Assembly: GCF_014274465.1 (NCBI RefSeq)
Contig: NZ_CP060394.1
Span: forward strand, 4,588,001 to 4,652,000
Direction: 5' to 3'
From: Alloacidobacterium dinghuense
GTDB lineage: Bacteria > Acidobacteriota > Terriglobia > Terriglobales > Acidobacteriaceae
Length of the DNA stretch: 64,000 nucleotides
Part shown: positions 3,818 through 22,748 of the stretch, in pieces
Position numbering within the stretch: position 1 is the stretch's first letter
How the letters are laid out: every line of letters begins with the position of its first letter
Program-made: the position numbers and the translations under genes
The notes under the pieces: generated by a model
The model's input: the letters and a program-made list of their open reading frames with translations, nothing else
What the model was told of the DNA's origin: nothing
Database searches by the model: none

Positions 3818-3893
3818 GCACCGGTGGCGAAGTGGCTAACGCGCTGGTCTGCAAAACCAGTATTCGCGGGTTCAATTCCCGCCCGGTGCTCCA
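3818..3893 (+). tRNA. tRNA-Cys (anticodon GCA)
   Basis: A 76-nt cloverleaf. Acceptor GCACCGG pairs with CCGGTGC; the anticodon stem CTGGT/ACCAG closes the loop CTGCAAA with GCA at 34-36; the T stem GCGGG/CCCGC closes TTCAATT. The discriminator is U, typical for tRNA-Cys, and the CCA end is encoded (3891-3893). Its 3' half serves as the left attachment site of the island that follows. Confidence 0.95.
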
Positions 3894-3895
3894 TT
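3848..3895 (+). repeat. attL: 48-bp core inside tRNA-Cys
   Basis: Covers the anticodon loop to the CCA end plus two bases. It matches 22646-22693 in direct orientation at 47 of 48 positions; the difference is A at 3859 versus C at 22657. Similarity continues as TTTAAATCAA versus TTAAATCAA after a one-base gap. Confidence 0.9.
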
Positions 3896-3988
3896 TAAAT
3901 CAATGGTTTATGTTGATTCTTGAATCGCCGCAACACCATCGAAAACCATTTTAAGATACACTTCGTCAGTTTTCCCTCAAGGACGACG

Positions 3989-4310
3989 GTGCGAATCAAG
4001 AGAAATCGCTATCAACAGGGCAGCATCCGCAAGGTGCGTCGCGCCAAGGGTTTTGCCTGGGAGTTCCGTTATTACGTCAACGAAAATGGCAAGCGGAAGC
4101 TTCGGGCGGAGACTTTTGATCCCAAGATCTACAAGACAGAATCGGATGTTCGGAAGGCGCTCGAACCTCAGATTCTGAGGCTTAACAGAGGAACGAATTA
4201 CGGACTCTCTGCTGGGGTCACCTTCGGCGCGCTTTTGGATCGATACATTGCCGAGGAGATGCCTGCTCGTAAGTCCACCCGAGAGTCCTATCTCTCACTG
4301 ATCAGAAATC
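3989..4310 (+). pseudogene. Truncated tyrosine recombinase (phage-type integrase), N-terminal part only
   Basis: From a GTG at 3989, preceded by AAGGA, the frame codes for about 107 residues. They read as the N-terminal arm-binding domain (RYQQGSIRKV, then 'WEFRYYVNENGK') followed by the start of the SAM-like core-binding domain (TFGALLDRYI, then 'KSTRESYLSLI'). The similarity ends near 4310. The frame runs on to 4732 but only as the shadow of the minus-strand regulator. The whole catalytic domain (R..H-x-x-R..Y) is missing. The position right after tRNA-Cys identifies it as the element's own integrase. Confidence 0.75.
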
Positions 4311-4368
4311 AATCTTCGACCTCAATGGGGCAGCCATCTTTTGCTAGAGATAAAGTAGCGAAGCGGCT

Positions 4369-4932
4369 TCAATGGTCGGATTGCTTTCTTTTCTTAGGTA
4401 GGCTTCGTGGCAGACTTTCAGCCATGGCGAGAGCCGCCTGCGATTCTCCTTTCAGCAGGGCCTTCGCAGCAGCGGATCGCAGCGTGCGATACCACCTAGC
4501 AAGTGGAGCGGACGCATCTGACGAATCGTCCTCTTCGATCGACTCAATCGCGTCAGTTTTCTTATGTGCAGATTCCCGAAGGAACTCGATGGCAAGGCGT
4601 CGTTCCCCACCCGCCCATAAAGCCACAAGCGCCACGCGAAGGTCGGCATCGAGATCGCCGCTGGGCCCATCCTCGAGCAAGGTACGCCAGCCAGCGTTGA
4701 GGAGTTTTTTTCCCGTTGCTGTGATTTTGTGATCCGTGCGGCCCCGAGGGCCGGGCTTTCCCTGGCGTACGCATCCCGCGTCCAAAAGTCTCTGTAGTGC
4801 AGGGATCGTTGCACCAGGGGAAAGTCCGGCCATCTTTTGTAGATCGTACGGAGTCGAAATGCCGCTATCGATCAATGCCAACACAAATAGGTCGAGGTCA
4901 GTTCGGCGGCGCCTGTCACGAGTCTCAGACAT
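4369..4932 (-). CDS. PadR-like winged-helix transcriptional regulator
   Basis: 187 residues. Residues 12-75 look like a PadR-type winged helix: 'DLFVLALIDSG-x-x-TPYDLQK-x-AGLSPGA' followed by a recognition-helix region and 'GPRGRTDHKITATGKKLL' as the wing. The C-terminal 100 residues are helical with an acidic insert (EDDSSD), like the PadR dimerisation tail but longer than usual. It probably binds DNA as a dimer, targets unknown. It lies antisense to the dead end of the integrase frame, suggesting that a rearrangement brought it in and cut the integrase. Confidence 0.65.
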   Translation of the reverse strand: MSETRDRRRRTDLDLFVLALIDSGISTPYDLQKMAGLSPGATIPALQRLLDAGCVRQGKPGPRGRTDHKITATGKKLLNAGWRTLLEDGPSGDLDADLRVALVALWAGGERRLAIEFLRESAHKKTDAIESIEEDDSSDASAPLARWYRTLRSAAAKALLKGESQAALAMAESLPRSLPKKRKQSDH

Positions 4933-5715: not shown

Positions 5716-6021
5716 ACTGCGATTGTGACCGATTACTGATTTTCACCAAATACTCGCGCCATTCGCATTCCATACATCGCGTTCGCATTGCTCGATCTAG
5801 ATGCAGGTTGCCTATCCAGGCAACTGATCCCCTGAGATCAATAACACCCTTCTCAAACCCTATAAAACCTCAACTCCCCGGCATCCTGCGTGCCTATTCA
5901 CTTCAACCATTCCGCGGTGAGATCACCGCGGAATGATGGACATTATTCGCGGGCCGGAGGGGAATCCCAGCGCATTGACATTGCTTCAGCCTTCTCTCGG
6001 ACCCATCCGCTAAAGAGCGCG
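5716..6021. other. Gene-free stretch with a perfect palindrome
   Basis: About 300 bp without a supported gene. Its only clear feature is the inverted repeat at 5908-5935. A hexanucleotide-scale repeat (GCATTCCATACATCGCGTTCGCATTGC region, about 5766-5792) looks like chance. Confidence 0.4.
5908..5935. repeat. 13-bp perfect inverted repeat, 2-nt spacer
   Basis: CATTCCGCGGTGA at 5908-5920 and TCACCGCGGAATG at 5923-5935. There is no T-run, and the spacer is too short for a normal hairpin loop, so it is more like a dimeric protein site or a remnant element end than a terminator. Confidence 0.6.
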
Positions 6022-6318
6022 CTATCCGTTGCCCATCTGGAAGACGTTTTCGATGTAGTTCTTATCGCCGCCGGCGGTGACCGGGTTGCCGTTGATGTAG
6101 CCGAGGATTGCCTGCTCACCGTTCTTGAGCCCGAGAACCTCTTCGATGGACTTGCCCTGGAAGCGCTCCCAGCCATGAACGCGCGACTCAACCACATCGT
6201 ATTCGGCCATACGCTCTACGTTCATGCCGTAGAGGTTGTTGCGCATCAGGAAGCCGCCTTCACCGAGATAGCGTGTCTTGCGCAAGAGTTTGGATCCGTC
6301 GTTGTAAGGGGGAAACAA
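6022..6318 (-). CDS. Unrecognised fragment partly inside the inverted repeat
   Basis: 98 residues, not recognised. The N-terminal 25 codons (PYNDGSKLLRKTRYLGEGGF) lie in repeat copy A and recur at copy B (13240-13324, plus strand), where the frame is cut off after 'GGFLMP'. The rest is polar and acidic with 'RMAEYDVVESRVHGWERF' and 'GYINGNPV'. There is no signal peptide or membrane segment. The coding pattern looks real but the start is uncertain and the protein is probably the tail of a larger gene that lost its 5' part when the repeat formed. It is divergent from the recombinase, with the palindrome at 6326-6344 between them. Confidence 0.4.
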   Translation of the reverse strand: MFPPYNDGSKLLRKTRYLGEGGFLMRNNLYGMNVERMAEYDVVESRVHGWERFQGKSIEEVLGLKNGEQAILGYINGNPVTAGGDKNYIENVFQMGNG

Positions 6319-6325
6319 ACTCTTT

Positions 6326-6344
6326 ACATATCTCAGATATATGT
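6326..6344. promoter_or_regulatory. Palindrome upstream of recombinase (possible res/operator site)
   Basis: ACATAT and ATATGT, separated by 7 nt, lie 22 bp before the recombinase ATG in an AT-rich patch. Serine resolvases bind such imperfect palindromes (res subsites) next to their own gene and repress themselves there. It is identical in copy B (13223-13241). Confidence 0.4.
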
Positions 6345-6365
6345 GATAACCTGGTTTCCTTTTAT

Positions 6366-6812
6366 ATGAAGCGCGCCGCCCTGTACATGCGGGTCTCCAC
6401 CCTCGATCAGCACCCCGAAACCCAGCTCTACGAGCTCCGGCAGATGGCTCAGCAGCGCGGCTTCCATATCGTCGAGGAGTACACCGACAGGATTTCCGGT
6501 GCCAAGGCCAGGAGACCGGGCCTCGATGCCCTGATGCGTGATGCCCGCCGCGGCCGCTTCGACGTCATCTTGGTCTGGGCCTCGGATCGCATCGCCCGGT
6601 CGGTGAAGCATCTCCTTGATCTGCTCGATGAGTTCAATCGGCTCAACATCGAGTTCGTCAGCTTCCGCGAGCAGATCGACACCGGCGGTCCGCTGGGCCG
6701 CGCCATTGTCGTCATCATCGGGGCCATCGCAGAGCTCGAACGCAACCTCATCCTCGAACGGGTGCGCTGTCTCAAACGGCCTCCAAAAACCCGCCCGCTA
6801 AACCCCGCCTAA
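6366..6812 (+). CDS. Serine recombinase, catalytic domain only (copy A)
   Basis: 148 residues of the resolvase/invertase catalytic domain. The nucleophile serine is in 'MRVSTLDQ' (Ser10), followed by the conserved 'ISGAKARRPGLDAL', the arginines of 'WASDRIARS', and the E-helix 'GRAIVVIIGAIAELERNLI'. Family members continue after 'ERV-R-A-G-' into a linker and a HTH domain. Here the sequence turns into 'RCLKRPPKTRPLNPA' and stops, so the DNA-binding part is missing. The start ATG is internal to the repeat. Copy B is identical in protein sequence. Without the HTH it probably cannot recombine by itself. Confidence 0.85.
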   Translation: MKRAALYMRVSTLDQHPETQLYELRQMAQQRGFHIVEEYTDRISGAKARRPGLDALMRDARRGRFDVILVWASDRIARSVKHLLDLLDEFNRLNIEFVSFREQIDTGGPLGRAIVVIIGAIAELERNLILERVRCLKRPPKTRPLNPA

Positions 6813-7072
6813 TCCATACCCCAAACTCCCCCTCCCGCCTGTTTCAGAAGGTGTGGGTTGTGTTACAGCATGAATCTTTGGCTTGCACCGAGCCGAGAAT
6901 TACTCTGAGCCTCCAAACAGTGGGAATTTCACTGACGTCCTCACGCGTTTGCATCTTTGTTGGCAGTTGATCGCACATCGGTGCTATCGCATCGAAACGT
7001 GTCTTTGGGACAAAGAAGATTGCGGAGCCAGGAAATAGCATCAAAGAAAGTCGAGAAGCGATAAAGTCCTTG

Positions 7073-7584
7073 ATGCCTCCTACACGATTTACGCGCCGAG
7101 ACCTGCTGAAGATCGGAGTCGCAGCTGGTGCAGCAGAGATGCTAGGAGGGATCCTTTCTGGATGTGGTGGGCACAGGTCCCGGAACCGTCTGTAGTGGGG
7201 AACCCAGCGATAGCCGGTCCCCTTGGACTCGGCTTTCGAGTGCCAATGTTGATCATCTCTCCCTTCAGCCGAGGCGGTTTTGTTTCATCGGACCTGTTCG
7301 ATCACACCTCGGTTCTTCGCTTTCTTGAGACACGATTCGGGGCTGAAGTGCCGAACCTGACTGCATGGCGTCGCTCAACAGTAGGCGATATGACGAGCGC
7401 CTTCAACTTCATCAAGCCTGACACATCCATTCCCACATTGCCCTCAACCGTCGCAGGCCTTCCGTCAACCATCGCCGAATGCGTTAACAACCTGGCGGCC
7501 TTTTCTGCGTACCAACTTCCCACTCCGCAAGTTATGCCAACCCAAGAAGACGGTTCGGCAATTCGGCCGAGTGGCGCCTGTTAA
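7073..7584 (+). pseudogene. Phospholipase-C-type phosphoesterase with internal deletion
   Basis: From the ATG at 7073 the frame gives a Tat signal (TRRDLLKIG, then an Ala-rich segment and GGILSGCGG) and stops at 7193. From about 7165, in another frame, comes the C-terminal segment of the alkaline-phosphatase-like phospholipase C family: 'GLGFRVPMLIISPFSRGGFV', 'FDHTSVLRFLETRFG', then 'LTAWRRSTVGDMTSAFNF', ending at 7584. The roughly 350 residues normally between them, with the metal and catalytic threonine sites, are gone. Intact relatives are exported by Tat and cleave phosphate esters. Non-functional here. Confidence 0.75.
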
Positions 7585-7970
7585 GTAAATCGACCTTGAA
7601 TGGCCGATCTACATGGGGTTGAGTCCGCAGCCGATTAGGTCTATCCAAACGTCCGCACGCGGGAAAAATGACCAGACCGGTCGTTGAAATCTCGCAGCTC
7701 GCCCTGGCATCAGTTGCCGAAAAGAAAACTCTTCTCATCTGAGCTTGTGAACAGCAGGTGAATTTCAGATGAAACAATTGCGAACGGCCACTCTCCTTAA
7801 CTTTCACTTAAGTTAAACCTCCCTACGCTGAAACCACGCCACTCACAGTAAAGCGTTTGTCCTGGGGATCCGCCGCCACTGCTAATCCAAGAGAGGCTAC
7901 CAAGACAGAGATAGATCCAAACAAGACTCACGCAATGAACCCGGCAACCTTTTGGGGAGGTTAATCGAGT
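7585..7970. other. Upstream region of the TonB receptor
   Basis: 386 bp without a supported gene. It holds an inverted repeat at 7797-7816 and, just before the receptor ATG, GGGGAGG as ribosome site. No convincing -35/-10 pair was found. Confidence 0.4.
7797..7816. promoter_or_regulatory. Inverted repeat, possible operator for the TonB receptor
   Basis: TTAACTT (7797-7803) and AAGTTAA (7810-7816) with a 6-nt spacer, about 155 bp before the receptor start. Symmetry and AT-richness fit a dimeric regulator site; the regulator is unknown. Confidence 0.3.
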
Positions 7971-10940
7971 ATGCGCAAATGTTTCCAACAGACGTTCTCC
8001 GTTCTCATACTTATCTGCTTGCTGACTTCGTTCCGAGTGCCCGCACAAACGGCTCCCGGCGGTATAGCCGGAAATGTTCAAGATTCAGCTGGCGCGGTTC
8101 TTGTCAGCGCGAGAGTAGAAATCGAACCGTCCGATCGCCAGGCAGCCACCGACAATCAAGGGACATTTCGTATCCCGAACCTTCCTCCTGGGCAGTACAC
8201 GCTCAGGGTTTCCTATGTGGGGTTCAACCCATTTGAAACAACTGTGACCGTCGCTTCAAGTCAAACTGCAAATGTGACTGCGACGCTCCAGGTGGGATCT
8301 GACGCCGACACTGTCCTTGTCACCGCACCTCGACTTGAGGGCGAAGCGGAAGCCGTGAACGTCGAGCGCATGTCGGCACAAATTGTGCAGGTTGCGCCAC
8401 AGGGAGTGATCACCAGTCTTCCCAACACCAACATCGCCGATGCCATAGGGCGCTTGCCCAGCGTGTCTCTGGAGAGAGATGAAGGTGAAGGCAAGTACGT
8501 ACAGATTCGCGGCACGGAACCGCGCTTGTCGAATCTTACCGTCAACGGCGTCAACGTGCCGTCGGTTGAAGTGACGGTGCGCAACGTCAAGATGGACGCG
8601 ATCCCCTCCAACGGAATTGAGCGCATCGAGGTCTACAAGACTCTCGCTGCCGATCAGGACGCCGATGGCGTAGGCGGTACGGTGAACCTGGTAACCCCGA
8701 CGGCACAGGACAAGCCAACGTATTCGCTGAACGGTACGGCAGGATACAACCCTCTGCAAACCGGCTACTGGCGCGGAGGCTTTGACGGAACTTTCGGGAA
8801 GCGATTCGGACCCGGCAAAAAGTTCGGGTTCCTGTTGGGTGGAACATGGGATCGCACCAACCGTGGTATCGACGATCTTGAACCGAGCCAGACCTTCGGC
8901 ACCCTCGCCAACGGTCAAAATGTTGCCTATGTCAGCAGCGAGGACTTTCGCTCGTACGATTACTATCGCACCCGGTACGGCTTCGATACCGGAATAGACT
9001 ACAAAATTACCCCCACTCTGACGACCTATGTGAAGGGCCTTTATGCCGACTTTCACGATTTCGGTGAAACCCATGTTTACACGCCAAGCACAGCAAACAT
9101 GATCGATTCCGCCAGCGGCTCGACGGTAAATTTCTTCACTCCCGCTCAATGCGATGCGTATAACGCGCAGAATCCGAATGCGAGCACACCTTGCAGCTAC
9201 GGGAATTGGGTCTATCGCCACTACATCCGCAGGCCCGATCAGCAGGTTTTCAGCTTCCTGGCCGGCGCCAGCCAAGCTTTGCCCAAGGATTTGATCACTG
9301 TCAACCTTGCTGTATCGCGCGGCCATAACATCGGCGGACAGGACTTCCCAACGACTTATTTCAGCGGGCCGCCTGCCGTGACTTTCAGTGAGGACCTGAG
9401 CAATCCTTACCGCCCAAGGCTTTACGCTACAGACGGTACAAATGGCTTTAACACCACTCAGTACACGGTCAATGAATCCGACACCGGTAGTTATCACGCT
9501 ACGCAGCTCAACATCCAGGGATCGGCAGATCTCGCGCATAACTACAATTTGTCAGGGCATGCAAGCACCTTCTCAATGGGGCTGAAGTTTCGTAACTCCT
9601 ACTCCACACAACGCGAGAACGACACGCATCTCGCTTTCACGGGAACGAATCCCTTCACCCTGGCCAGTGTAGGGGGAAACTATACGAATCCGACCTACTA
9701 CAACAAATCGTTTGCGATTAACGGACAGGCGTATGGGCCTACCTCCTCGTACAACAAAATACTGAGCGCTGTGGCGGCCAACTCGGGCGCTTTCACTGAA
9801 GACGTCGTAGGCGATTCCAACACATATGCTTCGGCATTCTTCAATGCCGATGAGCTGATCTCCGCAGGTTATCTGGAAGACGTAATTTATTTCAATAACG
9901 TGCGCCTGGAAGGTGGCGTGCGTTTTGATTCTGGCAGCACTCACTTTCTTGCGAATACGATCGACAACGGCGCGAATGGGCCCTGCTACAAAGACCCAAG
10001 CCAGAGTTGCCCTGCCGTTACGCCCAATCGGCAGGATGCCAACTACTTCAATGCGCTTCCCAGTGTGGCGTTGCAATGGCAGTTCCAGAAGGACAGCAAT
10101 CTGCGTGTCGTCTACAGCCGCGGACTTGCGCGGCCCAATATCGGAGACCTGGTGCCAGCCACCGTGGTCGATCCAAACCAGACTCCGTATCCAACGGTTT
10201 CTACAGGCAATCCAAATCTGATTCCGACCTTGTCAGACAACTTCGATGTTCTGGCCGAACACTATCTCAAACCGTTGGGTATTGTGCAAGCCGGGTATTT
10301 CTTTAAAGAACTCCATAACCCGATCTATCCGGTTGCAACTCTTCTTCCGAATTACAACAACACTGGCAGGACATATCAGTTGACACAGTCCATCAATGGA
10401 CCGAACGCGCACATTCAGGGAATTGAGCTGCAATGGGAGCAGCGTTTCTCCTTTCTCCCTGGCATCTTGAGCGGATTTGGCATCGATGCGAACTACAGCT
10501 ATTCGGCTTCGCAGGTCACTTTCCCATCAGGATTCGACGGCGGCCGCACCGATCATCCTGGGTTGGACCGTACTGCGCCCAACAACTACAACTTCAACCT
10601 GACTTACGATAAGAGCCGCTTCTCAGGACGTTTTGCTATCAGCCACAACGACCCGAACATTGCGGCCTACCAGTGGAACGCGACAACCGGCCCGACGAAC
10701 GATCCGATTCTTGGACTAAAGGGCCCAACAGGCGATAACTACTTCTACGGGCACACGCAGTTTGATGTGCAGGGCAGCTATCGCATCTATAAGGATTTGC
10801 GGGTAGTGGCGTCGGGACTGAATCTCAGCAATGAGGTCTTCGGGTTCTACAACGGTAGCGGCATCTACCCGGTACAGCGCGAGTATTACAGACCCACCGT
10901 CTCGTTTGGTTTGCGCTGGACGCTAGCGGGTGAACAATAA
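7971..10940 (+). CDS. TonB-dependent outer-membrane receptor with carboxypeptidase-like N-domain
   Basis: 989 residues. A signal peptide (to about residue 27, VPAQT) is followed by a carboxypeptidase-regulatory-like beta-sandwich (GGIAGNVQDSAGAVL, 'PPGQYTLRVSYVGF', about 30-110), then the plug domain with 'IADAIGRLPSVSLERDEGEG' and 'YVQIRG' (about 160-240), and a beta-barrel ending in the aromatic 'VSFGLRWTL' plus a few residues. The plug wording matches the Xanthomonas/Caulobacter-type receptors used for plant-polymer oligosaccharides; siderophores are possible. The ligand is not shown by the context. It lies inside the segment bounded by the 626-bp inverted repeats, convergent with the YncE-like gene. 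Confidence 0.92.
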   Translation: MRKCFQQTFSVLILICLLTSFRVPAQTAPGGIAGNVQDSAGAVLVSARVEIEPSDRQAATDNQGTFRIPNLPPGQYTLRVSYVGFNPFETTVTVASSQTANVTATLQVGSDADTVLVTAPRLEGEAEAVNVERMSAQIVQVAPQGVITSLPNTNIADAIGRLPSVSLERDEGEGKYVQIRGTEPRLSNLTVNGVNVPSVEVTVRNVKMDAIPSNGIERIEVYKTLAADQDADGVGGTVNLVTPTAQDKPTYSLNGTAGYNPLQTGYWRGGFDGTFGKRFGPGKKFGFLLGGTWDRTNRGIDDLEPSQTFGTLANGQNVAYVSSEDFRSYDYYRTRYGFDTGIDYKITPTLTTYVKGLYADFHDFGETHVYTPSTANMIDSASGSTVNFFTPAQCDAYNAQNPNASTPCSYGNWVYRHYIRRPDQQVFSFLAGASQALPKDLITVNLAVSRGHNIGGQDFPTTYFSGPPAVTFSEDLSNPYRPRLYATDGTNGFNTTQYTVNESDTGSYHATQLNIQGSADLAHNYNLSGHASTFSMGLKFRNSYSTQRENDTHLAFTGTNPFTLASVGGNYTNPTYYNKSFAINGQAYGPTSSYNKILSAVAANSGAFTEDVVGDSNTYASAFFNADELISAGYLEDVIYFNNVRLEGGVRFDSGSTHFLANTIDNGANGPCYKDPSQSCPAVTPNRQDANYFNALPSVALQWQFQKDSNLRVVYSRGLARPNIGDLVPATVVDPNQTPYPTVSTGNPNLIPTLSDNFDVLAEHYLKPLGIVQAGYFFKELHNPIYPVATLLPNYNNTGRTYQLTQSINGPNAHIQGIELQWEQRFSFLPGILSGFGIDANYSYSASQVTFPSGFDGGRTDHPGLDRTAPNNYNFNLTYDKSRFSGRFAISHNDPNIAAYQWNATTGPTNDPILGLKGPTGDNYFYGHTQFDVQGSYRIYKDLRVVASGLNLSNEVFGFYNGSGIYPVQREYYRPTVSFGLRWTLAGEQ

Positions 10941-10950
10941 GGGTTAAGTT

Positions 10951-10982
10951 TGTGGAGCGTTGCTCAAGGACAACGCTCCACA
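10951..10982. terminator. Strong hairpin between convergent genes
   Basis: Arms TGTGGAGCGTTG and CAACGCTCCACA (12 bp, perfect) with an 8-nt loop, 10 bp after the TonB receptor stop and 11 bp before the stop of the opposing gene. There is no clear T-run, but placement suggests a shared bidirectional terminator. Confidence 0.6.
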
Positions 10983-10992
10983 TGTTCCCTGA

Positions 10993-12015
10993 TCACCGCT
11001 GTCCAACCACAACAATCATAAAGGTGCCCGGCTTCGGCTTTGGCCGACCCGTTGTTGCTGGCTCAAGCTCGGCTGTAGGTAAATAGATCAATTGTGAAGT
11101 CTCATCCACGCCCATTGTTCGCGCACCTTCAGGTGTCTTGACGACCTGTTCTACTTCGAACTTGCCCGCCTTCTCCGCAGCCACAACGAGCGATCCGTCG
11201 CGGCAGCTCGCGAAGGACTTTTCTGCCATGACCTTTGTGGCATCTACACCCGCGCCAATAGGCAACGATGCTTCCACTTTGCCATCGTCCGCGCTCATCA
11301 CGATCAGCTTTTGCGGATTCCGGCAGCCGATGAAGAGACGACGTGATTTTGTATCCATCGACATGCCGACCGGATGTCCACCCGGAGCGACTGGCCAGCG
11401 TGCGGTCACTTTTCGCGAATTCAGGTCGACGACAGCAACGGTATCCTTATCTTCCAGGTTGATGTAGACCTTGCCTGCACCGTCAGAGGCGAGGAACTCC
11501 GGCGCTCCGCCCAGCATAATGGGAGGATCGATCTTGCCATTCTTCGGATCGATGTCGGGCTTGAAGGTCATCAGCACGCCGCCGTCGCCTGAGACAGCAA
11601 GAACGCGGTCAAGCGCCCCGTCGTAGATGATGCCGTCGGAGTCGGGCATGGTGGGGATCGTCCCCAGCACTGCGTAGGTCTTCAGGTCGAAAACCACGAT
11701 AGCGCCGCTACCGCCGCCATCGGTGATGAAGCCACGTCCAACCTTGGGAGCGATCGCTACGCCATGTGCGGTTTTCTGGCCGGGTATGTCTCCGAGCACC
11801 TTCCCTGAATCAGCATCGATGACCATAGTGTGAGTGGATCGCGGCACAAACAGCCGGTGCGTGGAGCGGTCGACTGTGAGATAGTCCCAGCCGCCGTCTC
11901 CGCCGATATGAAATGTTTTCGTAACTCCCCAGTTGGATTGTGCAAACGCATGCGATGCACTTCCAGATAACAGGAGCACAGTGGACGCAACCATGAGTTG
12001 GATGGTGTTCTTCAA
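10993..12015 (-). CDS. Secreted YncE-like beta-propeller protein
   Basis: About 340 residues. I prefer the TTG at 12015, which follows AAAGGAACGG and gives a normal signal peptide (KNTIQLMVASTVLLLSGSASHA, cleavage near AFAQ). An ATG at 12066 would add 17 residues but lacks a ribosome site. The mature part has recurrent 40-50 residue blades such as 'DYLTVDRSTHRLFVPRS', 'GKVYINLEDKDTVAVVDLNS' and 'SMDTKSRRLFIGCRN', as in the YncE/lactonase-like propellers. These are periplasmic; YncE binds DNA in vitro and is iron-regulated in E. coli, others are of unknown role. It probably forms an operon with the PepSY-like gene 75 bp upstream. Confidence 0.8.
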   Translation of the reverse strand: MKNTIQLMVASTVLLLSGSASHAFAQSNWGVTKTFHIGGDGGWDYLTVDRSTHRLFVPRSTHTMVIDADSGKVLGDIPGQKTAHGVAIAPKVGRGFITDGGGSGAIVVFDLKTYAVLGTIPTMPDSDGIIYDGALDRVLAVSGDGGVLMTFKPDIDPKNGKIDPPIMLGGAPEFLASDGAGKVYINLEDKDTVAVVDLNSRKVTARWPVAPGGHPVGMSMDTKSRRLFIGCRNPQKLIVMSADDGKVEASLPIGAGVDATKVMAEKSFASCRDGSLVVAAEKAGKFEVEQVVKTPEGARTMGVDETSQLIYLPTAELEPATTGRPKPKPGTFMIVVVGQR

Positions 12016-12090
12016 GGGATTTTCCGTTCCTTTCTTAGACAAAATGAATACCTGGATGCTTAACATCTGCGCAGGTGATTCACCACACTT

Positions 12091-12549
12091 TCAGTTCTGT
12101 TCGGGCGCTCGAGTGCCATCGGCATGCACACGGACTTCTCGGTGTTTCCCATGGTTTAAAATCTGGGCTTCATAGGCAGTCTCGGAGTCAGATTTCACTT
12201 CCTCTACCATCCGAATCGAACCGCCTTCGGCTCCCTTTTGGATGGCGGCCATGGCTGCTGCCGGCACTGCATCGAGTGACACCTGCTGCTCAACTTCGAT
12301 CACCTTTCCAGAAGGATCAATCGAGACGTCTTTCGACATGCCGTTGAGCATCATCTCCACTTCATACTCGACCCGGCCGTTTTCCACTTCCTTCGAATAG
12401 CCTTTGACTGTAGCCCCCAGAGATTCTCTCTGCGCCGTCTCCTTTACAGCAGGAGGCAGATCACCAAAGTTCACGCGCTTAGCCTCCGCATGGCTGTTTA
12501 TGGACAGAGCGGTTGCGGCACCTATTGCAACAATAAGAGCATTCTTCAT
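12091..12549 (-). CDS. Periplasmic PepSY-like (BLIP-like fold) protein
   Basis: 152 residues from the ATG at 12549, chosen because GAGGAGGGA lies just upstream. A signal peptide (KNALIVAIGAATALSINSHAEA) precedes two related segments of about 60 residues, 'LPPAVKETAQRESLGATVKG' with 'VEYEVEMMLNGMSKDVSIDP' and 'VPAAAMAAIQKGAEGGSI' with 'TAYEAQILNHGKHREVRVH'. Each has the helix plus beta-strands 'Y-E-x-x-...-V-x-x-G' of PepSY domains. PepSY proteins often inhibit or sense at the membrane; no partner peptidase is adjacent. First gene of the pair with the propeller protein. Confidence 0.7.
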   Translation of the reverse strand: MKNALIVAIGAATALSINSHAEAKRVNFGDLPPAVKETAQRESLGATVKGYSKEVENGRVEYEVEMMLNGMSKDVSIDPSGKVIEVEQQVSLDAVPAAAMAAIQKGAEGGSIRMVEEVKSDSETAYEAQILNHGKHREVRVHADGTRAPEQN

Positions 12550-12698
12550 GAGTCCCTCCTCGCAATCATCATGCAATCAGTCACCTTAAACCGGGCTTAA
12601 TTTGATAAGATCCGGCTACTCCTATTTGTTGACACTCATCCCAAATTGCTTACCGAAGCACGGTTTCTACGAATGATTCTTGCGCTACCTCGTGAGAT

Positions 12699-13324
12699 CT
12701 GTAACACAACCCACACCTTCTGAAACAGGCGGGAGGGGGAGTTTGGGGTATGGATTAGGCGGGGTTTAGCGGGCGGGTTTTTGGAGGCCGTTTGAGACAG
12801 CGCACCCGTTCGAGGATGAGGTTGCGTTCGAGCTCTGCGATGGCCCCGATGATGACGACAATGGCGCGGCCCAGCGGACCGCCGGTGTCGATCTGCTCGC
12901 GGAAGCTGACGAACTCGATGTTGAGCCGATTGAACTCATCGAGCAGATCAAGGAGATGCTTCACCGACCGGGCGATGCGATCCGAGGCCCAGACCAAGAT
13001 GACGTCGAAGCGGCCGCGGCGGGCATCACGCATCAGGGCATCGAGGCCCGGTCTCCTGGCCTTGGCACCGGAAATCCTGTCGGTGTACTCCTCGACGATA
13101 TGGAAGCCGCGCTGCTGAGCCATCTGCCGGAGCTCGTAGAGCTGGGTTTCGGGGTGCTGATCGAGGGTGGAGACCCGCATGTACAGGGCGGCGCGCTTCA
13201 TATAAAAGGAAACCAGGCTATCACATATATCTGAGATATGTAAGAAGTTTGTTTCCCCCTTACAACGACGGATCCAAACTCTTGCGCAAGACAGGCTATC
13301 TCGGTGAAGGCGGCTTCCTGATGC
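12699..13324 (-). repeat. 626-bp inverted repeat, copy B
   Basis: Reverse-oriented partner of 6243-6868. The two copies face each other across 5.83 kb (6869-12698) and could support inversion of that segment by homologous recombination. The flanks differ immediately outside. Confidence 0.92.
12755..13201 (-). CDS. Serine recombinase, catalytic domain only (copy B)
   Basis: The translated protein is identical to copy A over all 148 residues: catalytic Ser10 in MRVSTLDQ, conserved arginines, E-helix, then the same truncated tail. Both copies being cut at the same codon means the truncation predates the duplication. The upstream palindrome is conserved too. The two intact catalytic copies could in principle still form dimers but lack the HTH that would find the crossover site. 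Confidence 0.85.
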   Translation of the reverse strand: MKRAALYMRVSTLDQHPETQLYELRQMAQQRGFHIVEEYTDRISGAKARRPGLDALMRDARRGRFDVILVWASDRIARSVKHLLDLLDEFNRLNIEFVSFREQIDTGGPLGRAIVVIIGAIAELERNLILERVRCLKRPPKTRPLNPA

Positions 13325-22645: not shown

Positions 22646-22693
22646 TCTGCAAAACCCGTATTCGCGGGTTCAATTCCCGCCCGGTGCTCCATT
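22646..22693 (+). repeat. attR: 48-bp copy of the tRNA-Cys 3' half
   Basis: Direct repeat of 3848-3895 with one mismatch, giving the right end of the island. It lacks the 5' half of the tRNA and is not a functional tRNA gene. Confidence 0.9.
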
Positions 22694-22748
22694 AAATCAA
22701 CTCGCCATAACGTCGCTGATCACGGCCGAACCGCAGCTTTCTGATTGG

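Follow-up and report, generated by a model that had tools for sequence, protein, structure and literature searches.

Small serine recombinases usually invert one fixed segment or resolve transposon intermediates. Inversion systems of the Hin/Gin type combine a small serine invertase and a Fis-bound enhancer with two inverted short sites around the segment; in ccr cassette chromosomes and integron cassettes, recombinase-bound sites flank exchangeable cargo, with integrons using tyrosine recombinases; and engineered cassette exchange uses two inverted sites of one specificity around the cargo. The locus considered here lies in a 64-kb stretch of Alloacidobacterium dinghuense (hereafter the window, meaning this whole stretch), in which two long inverted repeats enclose a TonB-dependent receptor gene. 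Comparison with related genomes makes it likely, in our judgment, that the Acidobacteriaceae harbor a family of serine-recombinase inversion elements and that the window repeats are the arms of a decayed member. These elements share with Hin, Gin and Pin a small serine recombinase and two inverted short palindromic sites bounding a segment, and the best PHROGs match of the protein from one element, G277a, is the "DNA invertase" phrog_125 (E 7.9e-49). They differ in that the recombinase gene occurs twice, once in each long inverted arm and outside the segment, and in that the segments between the arms, ~6-25 kb long, hold differing cargo; we know of no other inversion system with such twin arms. 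The placement of recombinase-bound sites around exchangeable cargo is shared with ccr cassette chromosomes and integron cassettes, although ccr enzymes are large serine recombinases whereas the G277a protein has 199 amino acids (aa) and scores 93.8 bits on the NCBIfam CcrB model, for which the cut-off is 900. Two inverted sites of the same specificity bounding cargo also define recombinase-mediated cassette exchange, though that is a laboratory design while exchange in the present elements is something we infer. Among titles and abstract beginnings in the open-licence PubMed Central literature we recognized no description of a layout with twin recombinase arms. PinQ, from the E. coli cryptic prophage Qin, is a serine recombinase that inverts DNA, 1797 bp of it in another prophage, and affects phage infection (PMC12529663); its abstract mentions neither twin arms nor exchangeable cargo. 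The words "resolvase" and "invertase" do not occur in the text of PMC3174227.

The two window repeats are each 626 bp long, lie in opposite orientation and are 99.4% identical (Table 1), with mismatches at positions 6273, 6322, 6323 and 6349 only. With a 20-base seed, no other inverted pair of 60 bp or longer was reported in the window. The whole genome (6.27 Mb, one contig) holds no third full copy and, elsewhere, one 64% match to part of the repeat, and no copy was matched in any of the three other genomes of the genus. The original prediction had described inverted copies of equal length with about four differences, which is exact, and had placed a TonB receptor, a propeller and a PepSY-like gene between them, which is broadly right, the propeller and PepSY matches being sub-threshold. 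Absent from it were a truncated serine-recombinase gene (PF00239) and a terminal 30-bp site, both present in each repeat.

Relatives of this recombinase recur in the family in a consistent arrangement. Among 398 family genomes searched at E<=1e-45, with up to eight candidates scored per genome, at least 65 gave matches. Thirteen genomes, chosen largely for having several copies in that search, were searched in depth with all candidates scored, and seven of them contain a total of 11 same-contig subfamily pairs within 30 kb: five in G277 and one each in G035, G156, G432, G293 (one copy partial), G131 (both copies partial, at contig ends) and the window genome. All 11 pairs are convergent, with the genes pointing inward; a quarter would be expected if orientation were random. 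In the closed genome G277, ten of ten subfamily recombinases fall into the five convergent pairs (G277a to G277e), and two further matches are distant (39% and 31% identity). In each of the five elements of G277 and in G035, the two arms measure 2.1-2.5 kb and match each other at 98.8-100% identity. Between one G277 element and another, identity is mostly 71-80% where the alignment is long; within-element identity is 88.6% in G156 and 81% in G432. In a phylum-wide sample, three of 396 genomes matched at E<=1e-60, all from the family of the window and one of them the window's own. No confirmed relative was found in viral contigs, and none of the 5000 best plasmid records reached 60% identity even at its best place. 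Several sets of more distant recombinases that share a contig depart from the convergent layout and were not counted as pairs: G024 C38 (248 kb apart, second copy 44% identical), G370 C2 (272 kb apart, 55%), a 39% identical copy that contains a stop and lies 12.8 kb beyond the right arm of G035, and G138 C111 (L104, 1139-9547), where three serine recombinases, 35-45% identical to the query, lie within 9 kb in mixed orientation.

The second recurrent feature is a near-palindromic 30-bp site at the cargo-side end of the arms, for which a weight matrix built from 20 sites gives the symmetric consensus CTGTTTCAAAACGTATACGTTTTGAAACAG. Both window sites, which share one sequence, belong to the training set; the G432 sites, an internal site of G277d and the G293 site (score 26.3) do not. 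Sites occupy both inner ends in eight elements by the matrix (G277a-e, G156, G432 and the window) and in G035 by the core pattern. Exactly two places score at least 28, both at the inner arm ends, in G277a-c, G277e, G156, G432 and the window, G156 also having a weak site-like third place (16.3); G277d has two such places plus a weaker third (23.4) inside the cargo, and in G035 three places fit the core pattern, one of them internal. Shuffled sequence reached at most 11.0 (five mononucleotide shuffles per element), and apart from its two sites, at 34.4 each, no place in the window reaches 10. Across 63 recombinase entries, 38 have a site scoring at least 18 within 750 bp downstream, located 25-345 bp past the matched gene end; 16 of these entries (15 loci) have sites that were not used in training, and all 38 fall in a single tree branch of 48 entries (support 0.85, midpoint rooted). 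For a Tn3-type resolvase, the counterpart would be a res site with three subsites beside the start of the gene. A further motif, AACTGG[TC]CC, was considered as a general outer terminus and dropped, being present in seven of 75 recombinase-upstream stretches: both arms of G156, its duplicate locus L039, both arms of G277a, the right arm of G277b and, as a variant 184 bp upstream of the right recombinase copy, the window. It may be lineage-specific or a matter of chance.

In intact members, each arm carries an inward-reading resolvase/invertase-type recombinase of ~190 aa, and two inverted 30-bp sites, one at the inner end of each arm, bound the cargo block. The recombinase is predicted to cut the core of both sites and invert the cargo. 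With the sites inverted, a reaction within one element inverts rather than deletes; exchange between two elements could replace the cargo altogether. This moves the likely point of exchange from the whole 626-bp repeat, as originally proposed, to the 30-bp sites where the arms meet the cargo, and a flip by the repeat alone was set aside on the evidence of that inner site and of the paired relatives.

Where arm identity stops bears directly on this mechanism. Over 11 arm comparisons, nine between the arms of one element and two between contigs, the final 60 bp of the arm are 97-98% identical; the outer half-site is identical at 99 of 99 positions on the arm side and at 70 of 99 on the cargo side, and the two core halves at 64 of 66 and 61 of 66. 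Past the site, cargo identity drops to 100 of 330 and then 76 of 330 positions (23-30%). Identity breaks off at the core or just beyond it in G277a, G277d, G277e and the G363 comparison and at or near the site end in most others, while in G432 identity continues for ~30 bp beyond the site; these positions are broadly as predicted by exchange at the core. The same data weigh on an alternative, the original prediction in its strict sense, that the repeats are ordinary inverted duplications which invert, if at all, by RecA-dependent homologous recombination. In the window, 626 bp at 99.4% identity is ample homology for RecA and both recombinase copies are broken, but this account leaves unexplained the conserved palindromic site that ends each repeat, the halt of partner identity at that site, and the framing of seven cargoes (G277a, b, c, d/e, G035, G156 and the window) by related genes in the same orientation. 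We therefore consider it unlikely.

Two comparisons suggest rearrangement of the cargo. G277d and G277e share cargo that is 82-90% identical, in pieces over ~8.5 kb of G277d, and a large block of it (3937842-3946320 in G277d, 5546578-5557974 in G277e) is inverted relative to a gene pair shared just outside the elements; a small piece of the other cargo block, also shared, is oriented like that pair. The inverted block is bounded in G277d by the internal site and the right-arm site, and in G277e it begins after the left-arm site. This is a single comparative case, in diverged elements. Loci L116 and L117 differ at 15 positions in 5598 bp of flank and arm (99.7%), seven of them in the last 81 bp, and diverge at the site. 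Beyond matches to arms or short repeats, the cargo of each contig is absent from the genome of the other (88% and 87% complete), a finding that fits exchange better than inversion, though inversion could still account for the difference. In 32 contigs of known length from fragmented assemblies, two-arm contigs and closed genomes being excluded, a contig end lay within 1.5 kb of the recombinase in 17 cases against 9.5 expected (reached in 87 of 200,000 simulations) and within 1 kb in 11 against 6.5 expected (4,800 of 200,000); for contigs of at least 15 kb, 6 of 17 had an end near the recombinase against 1.5 expected (343 of 200,000). The excess fits arms that were collapsed as repeats during assembly. 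Among 14 single-recombinase contigs examined for self-matches, L098, L099, L114 and L100 start with 140-254 bp of their own arm end and site in inverted copy, L109 starts with a 99-bp inverted copy of the sequence just past its own site, L115 has a 49-bp internal self-match, and the remaining eight show no such matches.

Cargo differs among the elements except between G277d and G277e and between G156 and L116, the cargo end of L116 matching that on the right of G156 at 77% identity. G277a carries McrBC-type genes with weak PADLOC candidate matches. G035 encodes ThsB-like TIR proteins and PDC-M65A/B candidates, and G156 has Fic (SoFic model) and PIN genes together with a weak MqsA-like match. 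The genes of G277b are of ion-channel and CsgG type, and G277c contains a capsule gene, Wzi; L117 carries AbiE-like cargo by our own reading, with no NCBIfam match. An extension of the inversion mechanism, which we put forward tentatively and at somewhat less than even probability, is that these elements are natural cassette-exchange platforms, in which cargo flips within an element, whole cargoes are swapped between elements, arms are homogenized by copying and the window slot has been frozen by loss of the enzyme. Were this true, the swapped cargo would include defense systems, toxin-antitoxin loci, and capsule and receptor genes. If enzyme and site are indeed mirrored around interchangeable cargo, this would be a distinct route by which bacteria gain, flip and keep gene blocks, anti-phage systems among them, and the family would provide a ready set of short-site recombinases.

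The cargo also bears on whether the elements are phase-variation switches whose flipping turns receptor genes on or off. A surface receptor in the window and the capsule-assembly gene Wzi in G277c would suit such a role. The original prediction likewise supposed that inversion would change the orientation of the window genes relative to outside promoters, but this is unsupported: the receptor gene begins ~1.1 kb inward of the site, and a phosphoesterase remnant precedes it. Terminator-like hairpins, identified by eye, lie between recombinase and site in seven of nine elements (not in G156 or the window), and other elements carry defense-type or toxin-antitoxin-type genes. A switch of this kind thus seems improbable to us, somewhat more so than RecA-dependent inversion of simple duplications.

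A number of observations weigh against a family of paired inversion elements. The multi-copy genomes chosen for the in-depth search still hold unpaired copies (G363, G433, G338, G018, G024 and most of G138); these six genomes, most of them fragmented assemblies, yielded no same-contig subfamily pair. Single-copy genomes also exist in the family, for example G033 and G041. Twenty-five of the 63 recombinase entries have no site scoring at least 18, 15 of them outside the site-bearing branch and ten inside it (of these ten, L094 and L097 have at most 76 bp of sequence left and two belong to G035), and the G035 sites score below 0 on the matrix despite occupying the same position. The right arm of G156 groups with L116/L117 and not with its own left arm, the far end of the inverted block in G277e has no recognizable site, and L116 and L117 are metagenome contigs, in which a mis-join at the repeat is possible.

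Within this probable family, the window copy is damaged. Its recombinase keeps the catalytic domain (PF00239, E 4.1e-40; compare E 1.4e-41 in G277a and 1.7e-42 in G277d), yet has 148 aa where full-length relatives have ~190-200. A helix-turn-helix follows the catalytic domain in both relatives scanned with Pfam (G277a and G277d), whereas neither Pfam nor alignment to L034 found this C-terminal DNA-binding domain in either window copy: relative to L034, the window arms lack ~185 bp encoding the DNA-binding part and retain gene-end-like sequence and the stretch that follows. The genome holds no intact recombinase of the site-bearing group that we could find; its second recombinase lies outside the site-bearing branch and has no site scoring at least 18. 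Both enzymes are thus broken, although the sites seem intact. The receptor block has therefore probably lost the ability to turn, and the decayed window copy is probably a locked one, short of any action by RecA on the repeats. The term "invertible segment" in the original prediction therefore holds for the kind of element, given that relatives have inverted recombinase-bearing arms, inverted crossover-like sites and comparative signs of inversion, whereas a flip of the window copy is unproven and, if driven by a recombinase, unlikely. By its sequence, the window member has the layout of a DNA inversion system and lacks the intact enzyme that such a system requires, and it is most likely a frozen remnant.

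The same deletion is present in both window arms, so one arm is probably a copy of the other, made once the damage had occurred. A gene fragment that crosses into the left arm continues outside it, and ~60-70 bp of that fragment is also found in the right arm, which makes the right arm look like the copy. In the window and in G277c, the second arm may have formed by copying of the first arm together with some flank. In G277c, part of an acyltransferase-like gene (our own label) lies in both arms (L087/L088, 3427487-3428116 and 3454543-3454905), and its longer frame passes the left boundary only, an asymmetry like that of the window. Such a copied-arm history, together with two inverted gene-bearing copies around varied cargo, is also what a composite transposon made of two inverted insertion-sequence-like units would offer, and inverted gene-bearing ends around cargo are indeed common to both. 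The arms contain no recognized transposase, however, the longest anchored match that could mark a target duplication at the outer ends is 0-2 bp in eight elements, and the conserved end is the inner one; outer ends are not generally shared, though G277a and G277b have ~1 kb of outer arm in common. Of the alternatives weighed here, we regard this as the least likely.

Table 1. Features of the window element and of the surrounding island (positions within the window).
Feature	Position	Strand	Evidence
Left arm (inverted repeat), recombinase reading inward	6243..6868	+	Repeat comparison
Right arm (inverted repeat), recombinase reading inward	12699..13324	-	Repeat comparison
Truncated serine recombinase of 148 aa with catalytic domain but without helix-turn-helix region	6366..6812	+	PF00239 on identical right copy
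Truncated serine recombinase, same protein as left copy	12755..13201	-	Pfam PF00239
30-bp crossover-like site, left arm inner end	6839..6868	+	Score 34.4
30-bp crossover-like site, right arm inner end, inverted	12699..12728	-	Score 34.4
Cargo: phosphoesterase (phospholipase C-type) gene remnant	7162..7584	+	PF04185 positions 310-354 of 356 only
Cargo: TonB-dependent receptor	7971..10940	+	Pfam Plug and barrel; NCBIfam TonB-Xanth-Caul above cut-off
Cargo: beta-propeller-like protein	10993..12066	-	Sub-threshold NCBIfam propeller matches; no Pfam match
Cargo: small protein, weak PepSY match	12091..12576	-	Below Pfam cut-off; no NCBIfam match
Gene fragment crossing from left flank into left arm	6020..6312	-	Open frame; no Pfam or PHROGs match
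tRNA-Cys at enclosing island edge	3818..3893	+	
tRNA-end direct repeat, left copy	3848..3903	+	
tRNA-end direct repeat, right copy, 96% over 56 columns	22646..22700	+	

The window element itself lies in a larger structure. A duplicated tRNA-Cys 3' end (56 columns) bounds a stretch of ~18.8 kb that holds the repeats, and this stretch is probably a genomic island within which the element is nested. An open reading frame just inside it (3920-4732) has a tyrosine-integrase-like start by our own reading and no Pfam match. Of the genus's three other genomes, two conserve the block before the tRNA at ~75%, and over the stretches compared it is not followed by island content; a 107-bp match (78.5%) in G002 covers the right tRNA-end repeat plus ~50 bp beyond.

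Other observations concern the genes in and around the arms. The phospholipase C-type remnant of the window (7074-7584) keeps a signal-peptide-like start, by our own reading, and the last ~50 profile positions, and a relative of it lies at G000:C1:5578389-5578642. Among the decayed genes of the left flank, a strong hairpin (CCATTCCGCGGTGAGATCACCGCGGAATGATGG) was noted by eye at 5907-5939. In the related elements, an HU-like small protein (our own reading) is encoded just outside one arm of G277a (L083:6024-6515) and of G277b (L082:17993-18403). The gene pair outside G277d and G277e adjoins one arm of each (L103:10886-12501 and L085:1727-3309), the G277d pair having no NCBIfam match, and a homologous stretch (64% identical DNA) lies upstream of the L101 recombinase at L101:1695-3363. 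Finally, the window gene at 4369-4932, 1.3 kb outside the left arm, has no Pfam or NCBIfam match, and a 65% identical relative of it sits 8.7 kb outside the G156 element.

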